Positions 8,586 through 27,290 of a stretch of 28,585 nt of DNA are shown here, in pieces. Made by a program: the position numbers and the translations under genes. Source of the DNA: Acarospora socialis (taxonomy: Eukaryota; Ascomycota; Lecanoromycetes; Acarosporales; Acarosporaceae); the NCBI GenBank assembly GCA_025617375.2, contig JAMYGW020000029.1, positions 1 to 28,585 of the forward strand. Reading direction: 5' to 3'. The first letter of the stretch is position 1; every line of letters begins with the position of its first letter. The notes beneath the pieces are model-generated. The model worked only from the letters and a program-made list of their open reading frames with translations. It was not told the origin of the DNA and did no database searches.

Positions 8586-9897
8586 CAGGGTGGGGGACAA
8601 ATGTCTTCGGTCACTTCGGTAGCTTTTTATTAGTAAACCACCATACAATCATGAATTTTGAGCCCGAAAGAAACCATGAAACAGGCGAATGGATAACCCC
8701 TACAAATGCTAGAATTAAGGCCTTAATAGAAGAAGGTGTCCTATCAATTAGAGGTGCTGCACGTCGTTTTGGTGTCCTGTACAGCACTATTCGGTGTTGG
8801 ATGCGAAAATCCTCGGATTGACGGCCTCATTCCTTACGAACTGGACGGCCACGAAAACTCAACAAACGAGACCGACGACACCTAATTTGAATAGCGACGG
8901 CCTCATACGAAGGTCGAAGACTGAAGTGGAAGGAATTGGGTCAATTGGCTGGATTGGAGGTGTCTGAGAAGACTATAAAGCGAGCATGTGAAAAGGAGGG
9001 TTTTCATAAGTGCAAAGCATGTCGGAAGCCATTTCTTTCGGCCGAAACCCGCTGAATTCGAAGGCATTTTGCTAGGGTATACGGCAGAGTTGAACCGGAC
9101 TTTTGGAGGAAGATAATGTGGTCAGATGAGTGTTCTTTTGACACGTCAAGAGGCACCACTAAGTGGGTGATTCTTACAAAGGGAGAATGCTACCATCCAG
9201 CATGCTGCGAATCAGTATTCAAGTTGAATTCGACGTCCATACCAATATGGGGGGCCATTGAATATAATTGGAAGTCTCCTTTGGTGTTTTTGGAAGGGCA
9301 TGGGAAGAGGGGGGGATTGACGATGGAGGACTACAAGAAACAGGTCCTAGAGACTGTTGTGGGGCCTGCATTTGAAGAACAGCTTGGATGGGACATCAAT
9401 GGGCTATTTCAGGAGAATAATGCCCCAGTTCATGGGGCAGGACGTGCAAAGAGTCTTCAAAAGTGGAAGAAAGAGCTGGGTCTTTGTCTTTTTGACTGGC
9501 CACCAAGCTCCCCTGACTTATCTCCTATTGAAAACGTATGGCGACTCCTCAAGCAGCGAATCTACCGTCGACGATACCCTCCTCGGACCCGTCCGGACCT
9601 CATACAGGCAATTAAGGAGGAATGGGACCGATTAGAACTGAAGGATTGGAGGAAATATGTGGATAGTATGCCTATGAGACTACAGCAGGTTCGGAAACGA
9701 CGTGGATTAGCCACTGACTTCTAATTAATCCAAGAAGCATGCAATTACGTAGCCTAGGATCTAAATTATAACATATATAACAATTAACTTAATTCTACTA
9801 GTTGTGTCTGAATTACATATAAATTCATAGGGTTATGGGATACTCGTTGTCTCGCCTAATTATATGGGGTGACCGAAGACTTTTGTCCCCCACTCTG
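8586..9897 (+). mobile_element. Tc1/mariner element, complete with TIRs and TA duplication
   Basis: The 1312-bp element has 29-bp terminal inverted repeats, 8586-8614 and 9869-9897, matching at 27 of 29 positions (consensus start CAGRGTGGGGGACAAA, end GTCTTCGGTCAC). It is flanked by TA on both sides (8584-8585 and 9898-9899), the target duplication of this superfamily. It carries one transposase frame (8651-9724). The insertion is in the duplicated cyclin fragment, so it is younger than that duplication. Confidence 0.95.
8651..9724 (+). pseudogene. Tc1/mariner transposase, inactivated
   Basis: From the ATG at 8651 a single frame of 357 codons runs to the TAA-type end at 9724, broken by three TGA codons at 8819, 8888 and 9053. 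The N-terminal part has a helix-turn-helix (GAARRFGVLYSTIRCWMRK) and an AT-hook-like GRPRKL. The DDE core shows WSDECSF (first Asp), FQENNAPVH where the family has a second Asp (here Asn), and SPDLSPIENVWRLLK (third acidic residue). Three stops plus Asp-to-Asn at the second catalytic residue make it dead. All four changes can be explained by C:G to T:A transitions. An intact internal start at 9116 leaves a 202-residue frame, but it lacks the DNA-binding half. Confidence 0.9.
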
Positions 9898-10092
9898 TAC
9901 TTTCCAAAAGTACAGTTTGAATGTCATAGCTATCTGCATTCGAGATTCTTCGTAGGAAGTCCATAGGGTTAGGGTAACTCAAGTCGTAGTTGTGAGCGGC
10001 CAACACGTAACATTTAGCGCTGAGTATGTCCAATTCAGTGAAATCATCGGCGGCAACAGCGTCTCAGGTAAGAGGTGGAAATGAGTGTGGAC

Positions 10093-13114: not shown

Positions 13115-14832
13115 TTATATCTGCGTCTGTGAGGGAAGACTTTTTGTGGCCAACATCAGTGTGGCTATCGAGGTATACTTCTTTGCCCATTGACGTGTTA
13201 GGATAGAAGCTGAAAAGACTGATTAGTTTCCATCTCTGTCTAGTACTCAGCACAGATGACAGCGTACCTTTGAGGAATTTCTTGCTTGCATATTTCTCAA
13301 AGAAGGCTTCGTGAACCACAGGACGGTGCAGATAATCAATCATAAGCTTAAAAACAGGTTGGATCTCCTCCTCGCTGTACCCCGAATAGTGTGTGAGGGT
13401 AGGATTCTATCAAAGTCAGATTATCACCGAATCTTTCTCGGTCTGCATCACATACCCAGTCACCTCGTTCCCGGATAAGGCGCGAGAGGTACATTGCGGC
13501 GGCAGCGATGCAGCTTGGGTGATACTTCATGAACCTATGGTCGACCAAGCTGATCTCAATCAGGTACTTCCCGAGCGTACATGTCTGAATGTCGTAGCTA
13601 TCTGCCTTCGATATTCTGCGTAGGAAGTTCATGGGGTTAGGGTAGCTCAAGTCATATTTGAGAGCGGCCAACACGTAACGTTCAGCGCTGAGTATCTCCC
13701 ATTCAGTGAAAGCATCATCGGTGACGTGACGGAAATTGGCGACATGAGGGGAAAGAACCTCTTCATACTTGGAAGCGATGAACATTGCTGTGACCCCAAC
13801 CAACTGCAGACGATCCTGTTGGACGACCTTGGCTGAGAGGAAGCGGTCGATGATGTTGACAGCGAGGAACAGCGTCTCAGGTAAGAGGTGGAAATAAGTG
13901 TGGACCTGGATCAGCCAGTCAACCAAATCACCACGCATCTTCCATTCAAGGTCATCTTGGTGGTCCATATAGTGGGCGTTTGGCATAGTGGCTTTCTCAA
14001 GCACTTTGAGGTAGTCAAAAATCTCGACGACATACTCAGCAACCATGAGTGGGTCGTCGGCATCTCCCAGGTCTAGGTCTTGGACAGCCTGAAAGAACGC
14101 TTGCTTCACGTCAGGGACCTCTTCTTCAGCTTCGGCAACCTTTACTACTTCTTTAACCTCGAGCTCAACTCGCTTCTCGATCTCAAAGGCGAAGGTCTTC
14201 TTTGAGGGATCAAGATCCGGGGCAGGCGTCTCTTCTTCGATCAATTGCTGACTTGAGGTTGAAGTGGTGTTGCATTTTTGTTGCACACTTCCTATGACGC
14301 TTGATCCATTAGCAGGTCGCTTCAGCTCAGTCGCTGCCGCCTTCTTGCTGTTGTTGTTGTCTTTGGTGCCAAGAATCAACCGCGAAGAATTTGCTCCGGA
14401 CAACTTCTGAACACCTGCGTGTTGTGTGGTCTTTGATAAAAGACCCCGTTTGACATTCAACAACTTCGTGTCATCCTCGCCTTCAATGGTCTCGGTCCTG
14501 TTAACGTTGCTGACATCCCCAAGAACAGCGCGTTTTCGTTGAAACTTTGTTGCAGTCAGGTCGAGGGTGTTGATGGAGGACTGCCTTGATTGCAGAGGTT
14601 TCTTCATTGTGACGGTCGAGTTCTCATCAAGTGCAGCTCCTGCTGCGGCCTTAGCCCTGGTCAACCGGGTAGTACAACCATTCTCGTTGTTTTGATCCCG
14701 GACCACAACGTGTTGTCTCACACTTCGCGCCTGTTTTACCCTCGATTAGCAGACAGAATTTGTGAAGACGGCTTCGAACCATTATGAGTACTAACACGTT
14801 CAAATGCCGGAGAAGTGACTTACTGGAGGCAT
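13115..14832 (-). CDS. nimE: G2/mitotic-specific B-type cyclin
   Basis: It encodes the regulatory partner of Cdk1 that drives entry into mitosis and is destroyed by the APC/C. I model four exons: 14824-14832, 13456-14730, 13268-13406 and 13115-13209, giving 505 residues. Introns are 14731-14823 (GTAAGT...ACAG), 13407-13455 (GTATGT, branch CTGAC, ATAG) and 13210-13267 (GTACGC, branch CTAAT, TTCAG). Joining them yields MPPARSVRQHVVV at the start, a destruction box RAVLGDVSN at about 70-78, and the cyclin-box opening MRGDLVDWLIQVHTYF from about 268. Next come SKYEEVLSP, and a C-terminal cyclin fold reading THYSGYSEEEIQPVF, HEAFFEKYASKKFLKA, SILTRQWAKKY. These C-terminal residues match ascomycete NimE/Clb-type cyclins better than basidiomycete ones. 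The large exon also reads upstream as a GTG-initiated frame, but the ATG microexon restores a normal start. The symbol is the Aspergillus orthologue name. The gene appears intact and is the source of the fragment at 8531-10092. Confidence 0.93.
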
Positions 14833-22351: not shown

Positions 22352-22880
22352 AGGCAATATTGCACTTTGGCTCGCAACATTGCGACTCCCCATGCAACAT
22401 TACTCCTCTAAGTGCAACATAACCCCCCACTGTGCAATATTGCTCGCCACGGTCTCCTAAGCACGTCCCAACTTTTTTTCTCTCAAAGAGTGCATCCTTG
22501 CTGTTGGCTATCTGCGGCATCACTATCCAGCATTACTACAAGTTCAAAACATGTGCTCTACATTAGGTGATGAAGGTAAGAGATGAAAATCCGAGCAGGA
22601 ATCGAGAGAAAAGGCCAAGAGGCTTCGCCATGATTGACCATTTGAATGCGGTCATTATGATTCTGAATTTCACGCATCTTTAGATAGGGGGGTGAAAAGG
22701 AGCTGTACGACTTCCTTCAATGACTTGAGAAGGTTGCAACATTTGTGATGACAAGGCCAGAGACTACAAGTCAAATACTGACACCAATGCTGGGTCATGA
22801 ATTCACCAAGTTCAAGATCCTGGATCGACTTCACAGCGAGCTTCTTCAAATTCTCAGCCAAGCTCTTGACTGACCATTCA
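22352..22880. repeat. Dispersed repeat with GCAATATTGC palindromes (copy B)
   Basis: It aligns with copy A (11402-11660) over 22352-22645 and again around 22851-22872 (CTCAGCCAAGCTCTTGACTG). Palindromes GCAATATTGC occur at 22354-22363 and 22434-22443, and GCAACATTGC at 22374-22383, with further GCAACAT halves between. Its left edge lies exactly where similarity to the DUF3638 relic ceases, suggesting that this element truncated that gene. The 22670-22861 minus-strand frame is open but not recognisable; it could be transposase remnant. Confidence 0.65.
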
Positions 22881-23244
22881 ACATTCCATTATTCCATTGA
22901 GCAACTGAGGACTCTCTTAGTCTTGGCTCTCACATTAGTTCTCAAATGATTTGTAGAAATTTCTTAGATCAGGTATTACAGGTCGTGGATGAGGGCATCT
23001 CACAGGGAAATCACACAGCTCAAGGAAATTTTACAGTTGTTCTATCAGAGTCATCTGGAACAAGCTCAAGGCGCAGATTAGTGTAGCATTGGTTGGCACA
23101 TGAGAAATAACCGGCGGCCAACTAGTATTAATGCAGTTCAGATACACTTATCTTAGTCATCAGCACCAACAAATAAGTGTAAACTAGTATCTGAACACAG
23201 CAGCGTACACTCTCTAATCCATCACAGCTTACCTTCTATCTCAC
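22881..23244. promoter_or_regulatory. Upstream region of the EF-1alpha-like gene with an inverted repeat
   Basis: No gene is visible. An inverted repeat lies 50-110 bp upstream of the start codon: left arm 23136-23151 (GTTCAGATACACTTAT) pairs with 23173-23196 (ATAAGTGT, 7-nt interruption AAACTAG, TATCTGAAC). The 20-odd bases before the ATG are pyrimidine-rich (CAGCTTACCTTCTATCTCAC), as often seen before fungal starts. No TATA box is asserted. Confidence 0.4.
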
Positions 23245-23946
23245 ATGATGGAGAAAACGAACATGGATATCAAGGTCTTCTTTGATGGACCCTCTGAACC
23301 CAACACATATACTGTCATTGCCAGAGTGCTCAATGTGGTAAGCTGAGCCTCCACATCTACCATCAACCTTCAGTGCTAAAGGGAGAACAGATGGGAACTA
23401 TTGACCTCTTAACATATGAGAAGGTGCAGCACCAGAAAGGTTTTGCTCAGGTAGATGTTCTTCTGAAAGAAGTGAAATGCTTTCAGACTTGTCACTGTAA
23501 TGTCAACATTGTTTGTAAGTACTATCATGAATGCACTGAAGATACACTAACATCATGCATAGCTGAAGAGCCAGCTTGTGATTGTGTTGTTCTTGTGGTT
23601 GCAAAGGATATGTCTGGGATTGAGAAGTTCAATACAAGTAGTACAAAGCCATCCATCATCCTTGTAAATAAGATGTCAGTGAATCTTTACTATGCTCAGA
23701 CATACTCAGTACTTACTGCATCTAGGGACAAATCAAACTGGTTGGAGAAAGAATTCGAGCAGGTACGAAGGGACTTGAAACAAAAACTCAAGGAAAACAT
23801 CAAGACGTAGGCTATCCTTTCCGGTGTCTTTCAATACTAATTTTGAATTTAGTATTATTCCTGTCTCGGCCCACTATGATGACAACGTGGTTGACCAGAC
23901 CCCCTGGTATCAAACTTTTTCTGAAGCTTTTGAGTCACTGAAATAA
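23245..23946 (+). CDS. Truncated EF-1alpha-like protein with lost GTP-binding motifs
   Basis: Three exons give 200 residues: 23245-23337, 23391-23806 and 23853-23946. Introns are 23338-23390 (GTAAGC, TGCTAAAG, AACAG; phase 0) and 23807-23852 (GTAGGC, TACTAAT, TTTAG; phase 2). The order of similarity follows the EF-1alpha G domain: EKTNMDIKVFF against the family's EKTHINIVVIG, MGTIDLLTYEKV against GIDKRTIEKF, FQTCHCNVNIV against FETPKYNVTVI, ACDCVVLVVA against ADCAILIIA, SIILVNKMS against LIVAVNKMD, and TIIPVSAHYDDNVV...TPWY against the PISG..GDNM...PWY segment. Yet the P-loop GHVDSGKST is replaced by FDGPSEPNT (residues 13-21), about 13 residues including switch I are missing before residue 62, the DxxG motif is unrecognisable, and NKxD reads NKMS (124-127). 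Domains II and III are absent. Residues 61-96 hold eight cysteines. It cannot be a normal GTPase. Frame and splice sites are intact, so it may still be expressed. Intron 1's acceptor could alternatively be at 23381. Confidence 0.75.
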
Positions 23947-24412
23947 GCAGAGGTATGTAGCTTGGGGTGAAAACCTGTGGTACTTTCACTTACAATCAAT
24001 AATTTTCTGTTAGATATGGATAGGTGAGCTTGGTCGGACGTGGCTTACCGATCCACACCAAGTTTGATATCATGGTCTTGTGAGCTAGCTTGATGTCGTT
24101 ACTGTAGCAGCCAAGGTGTCAGTTGACCCAGTTGAATTCCTTGCCTTCAAGTGAAAAACACTGAAATGACCTCCAGAAACCTCTTGTGACTGCTCTGCAA
24201 TGTTTGCCTGCCCTCTGTGTGCTTGTCCTCCATGACCATGCTGCCCTACACCTCATCTCGTCCTTCCTGCCATTCCTGACGTCCGTCCACTAGTTCAGAG
24301 GCCGAGTAGTCCTGTTGGGTCGATTTCCAGGCCTATGTCCATGGGCCCATTCTAGAGATGCTATGCGCTTTAGATAGATTTCCTGAAAAGATTCTCAAGC
24401 AAATAGAAGGTA
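23947..24412. other. Intergenic, nothing recognised
   Basis: A GTATGT...TAG segment just after the stop codon (23953 onward) could be a 3' untranslated intron of the EF-1alpha-like gene, but this is speculative. No other gene, and no clear terminal repeat of the neighbouring pogo element, was found. Confidence 0.4.
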
Positions 24413-25411
24413 TCATCCTGCAGTCATTAGTGATACATCTGATGGATGAGCTGCTTCGGTAGTACTTTTAGCAACAACCACCACTTCTTCCTGTATCACT
24501 ATGGGGCTATCCTTCCTTGAAGGCCTCTGGAGCTGCTTTTTAAGGTCTGTTTTGACCTGTTCCGCTACTTTCCTGGCTATCTTTTCCTCTGCTTTAGCAG
24601 CCCTCTTGTCTATCAAACACCTCAGTCAACCAATTGATCACCAGGGAGTTGCTAGTCCAGCCGTTAGGAGAAGTCGTAAAGAACACATCCTCAGAAGAGA
24701 AATCCTCAAGCCAGGTGTCCTGGAGATTGCCTGAGTCCGATTGGTAGATAACTGTAGAAGGGAGGGAGGATCCATCCATACAAATTGTGACCACAATAGT
24801 AATCCATTCCCTGTTACCATCTTGACCAGCACCTCTGATTTCCGTGCTCTTAGACCATACTCTCTTTGTCTTTTGAAGTACACCAATCAGGAAGCCTTTT
24901 TCATCCATATTATAGATGTTCTCTGACCGGATCTCATATTCTTCCATGTTGGAGCTTAACTGCACTATATCAGTATGAGAGTCTGCCACTTTGGGCCACT
25001 TACCAGGTCAAACCAGAGAGTATACTCATATATGTTGTCTGCTTTCTTTCTGTCCAGATCAAAGCCTAACTGGAAGCCAGAGTGAAGCTTCTCTCGGTGC
25101 CGATTCACGAAGCGGGAAAGCCACATCTTTGACGGCGCAACTCCGGCAATATTTGTGGCGGAATTGCGTACCATGGCTGGGGTCGGTGGAGTTCCTTGGT
25201 CAGTCAATCAATTTATATACTCAATAAGTGTTATTTCCTGCTCTGAACTGAGCAGTTTTCCATTGCTGATCTTCTCCGCTCTACTGCCCGCTACACCTCT
25301 ATGACGCCGTGAGAGGGTAGATCTGTTGATTCCGAACAACCAAGCGGTCTTGCTGTAATTAGGACACTTCTGGCTTTTCAAATCTGCCAAAGCTTTCTCA
25401 ATTGGAGTCAT
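24413..25411 (-). pseudogene. Pogo/Fot-type transposase, internally deleted
   Basis: From ATG 25411 the frame encodes a psq-type helix-turn-helix (ALADLKSQKCPNYSKTAWLF, INRSTLSRRHRG) and a CENP-B/Tc5-type DNA-binding segment (LTDQGTPPTPAMVRN, SKMWLSRFVNRH, FDLDRKKADN). The DDE domain starts with ENIYNMDEKGFLIG. A TGA at 25208-25210 replaces a Trp expected in EYINW (TGG to TGA). An intron at 24960-25003 (44 nt, GTAAGT...GCAG) joins WFDL to LSSNMEEYEI in frame. After INWLTEVFD near 24625 the core is deleted: the DGHxSH and third acidic motifs are missing. Sequence resumes with the charged C-terminal tail (KRAAKAEEKIARKVAEQVK, then RPSRK and EEVVVVAKST). The direct repeat CCAAGTGTGGC occurs twice at about 25463-25490 near the element's presumed 5' end. 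Terminal inverted repeats and target duplication were not identified. Confidence 0.85.
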
Positions 25412-25629: not shown

Positions 25630-27290
25630 TTGATTGAACTTCCAGAAAACCCGCCAGACCTTGCCGAAAGACTACATCCGGTCTCTGGAGCTGCCTTCCA
25701 CGCCTTCTCTCGCAGACACGAGCCCCAATGCCTTGATAATACACGAGTCGAACTCCTCCGCAAGGTGATGAAATGGAGCAATAACCCGGACGGTGAGTAT
25801 ATATTCTGGCTGAGAGGCATCGCCGGCATTGGTAAGTCCACCATCGCTCGCACGGTTGCCGACAAATGGGGCAATATCGAACGACTCGGAGCGAGCTTTT
25901 TCTTCTCCAGAGGTGGAGGTGATCTTGGTAACGCTACCAAATTCTTTACGACAATTGCCTTCCAGCTGTCACAAGTCTCTTCGGACGTTAAACACTATAT
26001 CTGCGAAGCAGTAAAGAAGCAGCCGGATATTGTTCAGCAAGCTTTCCGAGACCAGTGGAAACGGCTTGTCTTTGGACCGCTTGCTATGCTAAAGGCCGAT
26101 TCAACTCCATTACCGTTGGTCCTTGTGGTTGATGCCTTGGATGAGTGCGACGGAGATCAAGACGTCAAACAGATCCTTCAACTCGTTACTGAGGCAAAAA
26201 TACTTAAAACTGTTCGATTGCTAATTTTCTTGAGTAGTAGACCAGAAACTCCGATCCGGCTTGGCTTTCGTAATATGTCCGGAAATCTGCATCGAGACCT
26301 CGTCCTGAATAATGTTCCCCGCGCTATTGCAGATAATGATATTCGGATCTTCTTTGAGCACAAATTTGGAGCAATCAGATCTGCTTCGGACGACCTACTG
26401 GTGGACTGGCCTGGCAAGGAAACTATTGACCTTCTAGTTTTGAGAGCTCACGGCTTGTTCATCTACACTGCAACAGTATGTCAGTTTATTGAGGAGAATG
26501 GTGAGCAATGGCCTCCCAATAACCTTCTTCACCTTATACTTCCCTGTGATTGCACAACCGACTCCTCGCTGTGGAAGTCCGGTAATACAGTGATAACTCA
26601 CAAGTTGCCCACAAAGAAGCTTGATATGATGTATACCCAAATCCTGGAGCATTCTCTGAAGAATGTTCATGATGAAATGAACAAGCAACAGCTTGTCGTG
26701 ATATTCAGACAGGGAGTTGGTGTAATTGTCAACTTATTTGAGCCTCTTTCTATTATCACTATTGTGGGATTACTTCCTTTCAATGAAGCACAATACAGAG
26801 AAGGTTGCATAATCTATACTCTGTTTTGGAAGTTCCTGATGGCCAAGAATACCCTATCTGCCTCCTTCACCCTTCGTTCCGTGACTTTCTCCTAAACAAT
26901 GAAAGATGCTGCAATCAAAATTTCTGGGTGAACAAGAAACAGGCACATGGAACTTTAGCGGAGAGCTGCCTGCGGCTCATGTCCAGCAATCTCAAGAGAG
27001 ATATTTGTGACCTGCGCGCCCCAGGTGCTCTTGCAAGTGAGGTGAACAGCTGTCAAGTAAAATTTTATCTTTCTGCTGATCTCCAGTACGCGTGCCACTT
27101 CTGGGTTCAACATCTTCAACAGAATAAAGTTCGGGTTCATCACATTGATCAAGTCAATCAGTTTCTGCGGAAGCACTTCCTTCATTGGCTTGAAGCTCTT
27201 AGCTTAATAGGGAAGGCGTCCGACAGTATCCAGATGGTAACTAGCTTACAGACTTTAGTTGTAAGTGGCCCTATGGATATATCTTATTAG
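25630..27290 (+). pseudogene. NACHT-domain NLR-like protein, frameshifted and truncated
   Basis: This is a fungal NLR-type signalling NTPase (heterokaryon incompatibility/innate immune class). The first frame (25630-26895) shows GAAFHAFSRRHEPQCLDNTR, Walker A GIAGIGKST (residues 63-71), FFFSRGGGDLGNATKFFTTIA, Walker B LVLVVDALDECD (163-174), the sensor FLSSRPETPIR, and FIYTATVCQFIEE. Near 26804 a one-base shift is needed to continue in the second frame (26805-27290), which supplies the winged-helix end: HNLYSVLEVPDGQEYPICLL, HPSFRDFLLNN, KQAHGTLAESCLRLM, LQYACHFWVQHLQ, LHWLEALSLIGK. No WD40, ankyrin or TPR repeats follow, and no N-terminal effector domain is visible: a TGA lies just upstream and no ATG is in place. 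The TTG start is only the open-frame limit. It is probably a relic, although a sequencing error could account for the frameshift. Confidence 0.85.

Follow-up and report, generated by a model that had tools for sequence, protein, structure and literature searches.

A five-exon gene of Acarospora socialis and two relatives: candidate eEF1A-derived G domains lacking both switch motifs

The window analysed here is the complete contig JAMYGW020000029.1 of Acarospora socialis (C29; 28,585 bp, in a genome of 31.1 Mb in 38 contigs). Its forward strand carries a gene, referred to below as the C29 gene, which appears to derive from the GTPase (G) domain of the translation factor eEF1A. With a probability of roughly two in three we read it as a five-exon member of a family, small and evolving fast, of eEF1A-derived pseudoGTPase G domains that stand alone and have lost switching; its two relatives would be locked forms, and its own product a binding surface. 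The relatives are a paralogue on contig C3 of the same genome and P0121, a protein from a metagenome. Because the genome holds a sister gene and environmental DNA has yielded a relative, the C29 gene looks like part of a small, unrecognised protein family and not like a lone dead gene.

Gene structure of the C29 locus

The C29 gene consists of five exons and four introns, all on the plus strand, and encodes a product of 166 aa, the frame being stop-free over 166 codons. Exon 1 (23248..23337) opens with a putative start ATG at 23248, a second in-frame ATG lying at 23245, and encodes the degenerate P-loop GPSEPNT. Intron 1 (23338..23390; 53 nt, GTAAGC...CAG, phase 0) matches a C3 intron in aligned position, and exon 2 (23391..23514) contains the GTID landmark and then the site of the missing switch I. 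Intron 2 (23515..23562; 48 nt, GTAAGT...CTAAC...TAG, phase 1) and intron 3 (23675..23725; 51 nt, GTCAGT...TAG, phase 2) are both absent from an earlier three-exon model. Between them, exon 3 (23563..23674) extends from the site of the missing switch II through NKM, and exon 4 (23726..23806) contributes the D of NKMD. Intron 4 (23807..23852; 46 nt, GTAGGC...TACTAAT...TAG, phase 2) corresponds closely to a C3 intron, likewise of phase 2, and exon 5 (23853..23946) encodes PVSAHYDDNVVDQTPWY, followed by the stop codon TAA at 23944-23946.

An earlier note on this DNA had described an intact spliced gene of three exons, two introns and 200 codons. The existence of a real gene was borne out, but not the details of its structure, since comparison with the relatives gave the five-exon model, which on the sequence evidence replaces the three-exon one. 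Introns 2 and 3 are both multiples of three in length and stop-free. When both were removed, the local alignment score to P0121 was 129, compared with 96 when both were kept, and that to C3 was 160, compared with 121. With both removed, the product matched Pfam GTP_EFTU at 20.2 bits, while no match was listed with both kept. Intron 2 agrees in aligned codon and in phase (1) with an intron in the genome's own eEF1A gene and with a GTAAGT donor of C3 (after V-T-V-I / V-N-I-V); intron 3 splits NKM/D, where the C3 intron is also of phase 2. For intron 2 taken singly, Pfam was neutral (20.0 bits kept, 20.2 removed) and the eEF1A alignment favoured keeping it (131 vs 114), which counts against the five-exon model; its removal was favoured because P0121 as predicted has no corresponding residues.

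It is scarcely credible that the product is nevertheless the three-exon protein of 200 codons with NKMS and an eight-cysteine patch, perhaps through retention of introns 2 and 3. Neither segment interrupts the reading frame, and the eEF1A score is higher with intron 2 kept, but keeping both lowers the scores to P0121 and C3 and abolishes the Pfam match. Each segment, moreover, has splice signals where C3 has them too, and for one of the two eEF1A shares the position as well. The NKMS motif and the eight cysteines of the earlier note were artefacts, because introns had been translated as coding: the S came from intron 3, the spliced product reading NKMD across 23674/23726, and three of the eight cysteines came from intron 2, so that five are left after splicing.

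Relatives, motifs and predicted properties

An eEF1A search of the own genome led to a second unusual locus at C3:447339-447485, which was expanded to a gene at C3:446472-447488. It encodes a G domain only, ends after TVLEAID, and contains GPQGVGKAT, CGGID, NKMD and PISGLRGDN..SPWY, without switch I and without DxxG. P0121 (210 aa) was found with a profile of C29 and C3 at 144 bits, compared with 106 for the next match listed; it contains GCAGVGKAT and NKLD, lacks the switches and ends at TLLAAID. C3 and P0121 thus keep a P-loop of the form GxxGVGKAT together with NKxD and PxSG and have lost the G2 and G3 motifs. Both exceeded the GTP_EFTU cut-off of 26.5 bits (C3 44.6, P0121 37.8). Pairwise identity was 46% between C3 and P0121, 35% between C29 and C3 and 31% between C29 and P0121; identity to eEF1A was 40% for C3, 39% for P0121 and 28% for C29. 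Each of the three is an eEF1A-type G domain only, with both switches missing and NKxD kept, and the P-loop is missing in C29 alone. Both switch motifs were missing in 3 of the 120 matches listed, namely P0121, P0135 (an eEF1A without a segment) and P0211 (N-terminally truncated).

The genuine eEF1A gene, the sole full copy seen in the genome, lies on contig C9 and is interrupted by introns. Two of these are of phase 1, in codons 25 and 91, one of phase 2 follows codon 2 and one of phase 0 follows codon 44; only that in codon 91 is common to both C29 and C3. Comparison of the genomic DNA of C29 and C3 showed four shared introns: one of phase 0 preceding [CM]G[GT]ID, one of phase 1 at the V-I/V-L codon, and two of phase 2, at NKM/D and ahead of the IP[IV]S strand. 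In this last case the introns of C29 and C3 sit two codons apart; the other three agree in aligned position and phase. The introns common to C29 and C3 include some that eEF1A lacks, and the first intron of C3 (codon 2, phase 2) resembles that of eEF1A.

The search for relatives suggested by the earlier note thus yielded one paralogue and one metagenome relative. No further paralogue beyond C3 was recognised in the own genome in searches made exon by exon, which could have passed over a copy that had diverged or was split many times (8 of 28 PF00009 matches lay outside the fetched loci). Likewise, when 64 loci (L001-L064) were searched by tblastn with C29, C3, P0121 and the G domain of eEF1A, no extra member appeared. 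The 201-aa three-exon product, used as the only query against about 5.8 billion proteins, had no match at E <= 10 among 94 candidates, partly because of the wrong gene model and the word-based reach of the search; the corrected alignment of C29 and C3 succeeded. Two loci on viral contigs were rejected, as switch motifs were present in both: one is near-identical to eEF1A over the first 112 residues and the other is apparently CysN-like. None of the 28 pattern matches in the genomes of bacteria and archaea was a relative. In the titles and abstract openings of the open-licence PubMed Central (PMC) literature no paper on such a family was found, though one may well exist elsewhere; papers on septin pseudoGTPases and on pseudoGTPases in general did come up.

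The landmarks G[GT]ID, NKMD, PVSA and DN..PWY and the intron at the same codon and phase connect the C29 product with the eEF1A G domain (PF00009, GTP_EFTU), and nothing matched it better than eEF1A, by sequence or by profile; these resemblances support an origin from a GTPase domain, as the earlier note had supposed. A three-sequence profile searched against PDB gave yeast eEF1A as the best match (2e-35), followed by other eEF1A and aEF1A, eRF3 (best 5.8e-17), Hbs1 and Ski7, so that eEF1A scored above all other families. The C29 product differs from eEF1A in the loss of the P-loop (GxxxxGK[ST] is absent from the 166 aa), of switch I (no ERGxT) and of domains II and III, all three as the earlier note had claimed. 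Switch II (DxPG) is absent too, DxxG being missing whether intron 2 is kept or removed; G1, G2 and G3 are therefore lost, and NKxD is retained as NKMD. Tblastn of the whole own eEF1A against the window (E <= 10) met the locus only at 23857-23913, and three further weak matches were obtained elsewhere in the window. In the P-loop region 2 of 10 shared residues are kept in C29 (8 gone), compared with 28 of 44 (16 gone) downstream of it. The motif losses look stepwise, the switches having been lost in all three proteins and the P-loop further lost in C29.

In a G domain without the switch I threonine and DxxG there is no co-ordination of Mg2+ and the gamma-phosphate, and no switching. Guanine is read by NKxD and SA/SG, and phosphate binding should fail without a P-loop. 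In sequence, the family ends where the eEF1A G domain ends, without the tRNA-binding domains II and III, and lacks the segments of switch I and DxxG/switch II while retaining the guanine-recognition motif NKxD and the G5-type PxS[AG]. C3 and P0121 may still bind a guanine nucleotide, with no sensing of the gamma-phosphate, and would then be locked and non-cycling. In the C29 product the phosphate loop is gone as well, so that nucleotide binding is improbable; if the product works, it might be a protein-binding surface resembling the eEF1A G domain.

Ski7 is kin of Hbs1 and has domains II and III. Like the family described here, it is a translational-GTPase relative, named GTPase-like by its depositors (PDB 4zkd/4zke), and the family profile matched it with an E value of 4.6e-7, but the same profile scored eEF1A far higher. 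In PMC5593906, pseudoGTPases of class i (pG1 and pG2 of p190RhoGAP) bind no nucleotide and those of class ii (Rnd proteins) bind without hydrolysis, and pG1 is described as having likewise lost switch I, through an 11-residue deletion. In that scheme, C3 and P0121 would be class ii-like and C29 class i-like. The proteins named there are of the Ras type or parts of a larger protein, whereas C29, C3 and P0121 stand alone and are of the translational-GTPase type.

Maintenance or decay

To the earlier note the gene was a neofunctionalised pseudo-GTPase and not a dead copy. Maintenance is supported by relatives of the same architecture, the shared introns and the constraint on codon positions, although part of the motif detail did not stand. 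Over 165 codons, C29 and C3 are identical at 50, 59 and 33% of codon positions 1, 2 and 3, and the proportions of nonsynonymous and synonymous differences were pN 0.472 and pS 0.735. The codon-position pattern and pN < pS indicate a long constraint at the protein level. In simulated neutral decay of the C29 frame (substitutions only, 1500 runs per level), the frame stayed stop-free in 8.2% of runs at 80% protein identity, in 0.9% at 60% and in 0.07% at 36%. By the usual two-index rule, neither the gene (indices 0.75 and 1.32) nor any of the fourteen 2-kb blocks that span 1-28000 showed a signature of repeat-induced point mutation; in block 1-2000 a single index was raised (0.92).

Several observations weigh against the family reading. 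P0121 is a single sequence from a metagenome contig of 1131 bp. The C29 product itself falls under the curated Pfam cut-off, and its low identity to eEF1A extends over 166 positions. At the C3 junction at the missing switch II (L055 2900-2980, C3:446899-446979) a GTAAGT donor of good quality is present, but no acceptor was found that would preserve the frame with it; the junction may be a lesion, a sequencing error or an unusual splice, and C3 may be damaged. A fold was modelled for P0121 alone, with eEF1A rows in the alignment, and folding without an alignment was poor (predicted local distance difference test, 49.8). A dN/dS below 1 holds across the entire C29-C3 divergence, but dS is saturated (about 2.9), and the constraint applies to that entire history, as distinct from the most recent part of the C29 branch or present function.

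A decaying duplicate, that is, a recent pseudogene of the switchless family or of eEF1A that has stayed open by luck on a repeat-rich contig, would account for several of these features and is unlikely, while retaining some weight. It agrees with the loss of the P-loop and of most shared residues around it, with the distance from eEF1A, with the C3 junction, with the wealth of gene fragments and transposase remnants on the contig, and with the repetition of the gene's flank on contigs C21 and C26. However, a frame of 166 codons has remained stop-free, which was rare under neutral decay, and the four GT...AG introns are in place, three at the C3 position and phase and one near. Most shared residues downstream of the P-loop region persist, and third codon positions have diverged far beyond second ones. 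We prefer the family of stand-alone pseudoGTPase G domains.

Surroundings of the gene and significance

An NPHP3_N domain, the NTPase of NOD-like receptor (NLR) type, lies at 25762..26241 on the plus strand, 1.8 kb past exon 5; it belongs to a downstream neighbour, any link with the C29 gene being putative. This NPHP3_N/NACHT gene (25630-27290, plus strand) extends over two frames that overlap, of which the second matches HTH_TANC1 weakly, under the cut-off. Next to the C3 paralogue, a large open reading frame (ORF) with ankyrin repeats and an NPHP3_N domain (449774-450301) lies on the minus strand (L055 3642-5999, C3:447641-449998 within the retrieved stretch), the two genes being convergent with ends 152 bp apart. 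Both genes are thus within about 2.3 kb of an NPHP3_N domain, as is 0.79% of the genome (<= 2285 bp from one of 53 matches, some of which are pieces of one gene). The naive product for the two loci is 6e-5, distance and neighbour type having been picked after looking. This proximity is a hint of a decoy role, in which the family would mimic the eEF1A G domain and bait an attacker of eEF1A (a toxin or mycoviral protein) under the watch of the adjacent NACHT-type NLR proteins. The tail-to-tail arrangement on C3 would fit such a role, but it concerns two loci, the orientations differ between C29 and C3, the DNA separating the C29 gene from its NLR contains a transposase remnant, and the open-licence PMC literature yielded no paper on it; the idea is a long shot.

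The upstream flank of the C29 gene (22600-22934 and other parts of 22600-24600) is repeated on the small contigs C21 (95%, 82%) and C26 (65-79%), and a 92-bp piece downstream of the gene on C1 (75%); the gene itself had no second match in that search. Transposase remnants were observed at 9116-9724 (DDE_3, plus strand) and 24594-24989 (DDE_1, minus strand), and a frame reaching 25579 on the minus strand appears by eye to be the same element as the latter. The contig also carries a long open cyclin B copy (13348-14721, minus strand; 457 aa), a diverged duplicate 85% identical to the full-length copy at C6:1447241-1448608. Its closest named relative among the matches listed was from Pleopsidium flavum (Lecanoromycetes, Acarosporales; 72%), other proteins reaching 81%. 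Short cyclin B fragments at 9905-10057 (minus strand) and C21:4084-4239 (75% and 69% identity) are probably remnants of further copies.

The C29 locus illustrates that stop-free introns with lengths in multiples of three can mimic the loss of motifs and the gain of new residues. Should family members in other fungi prove to have NLR neighbours too, a guard/decoy system for fungal translation would be indicated. The pseudoGTPases cited here from PMC5593906 are mostly of the Ras type. A stand-alone eEF1A-derived G domain in which both switches are lost and base recognition is retained would amount to a natural experiment in dismantling a translational GTPase motif by motif, with two stages kept as sequences, one with the P-loop present (C3, P0121) and one with it lost (C29).
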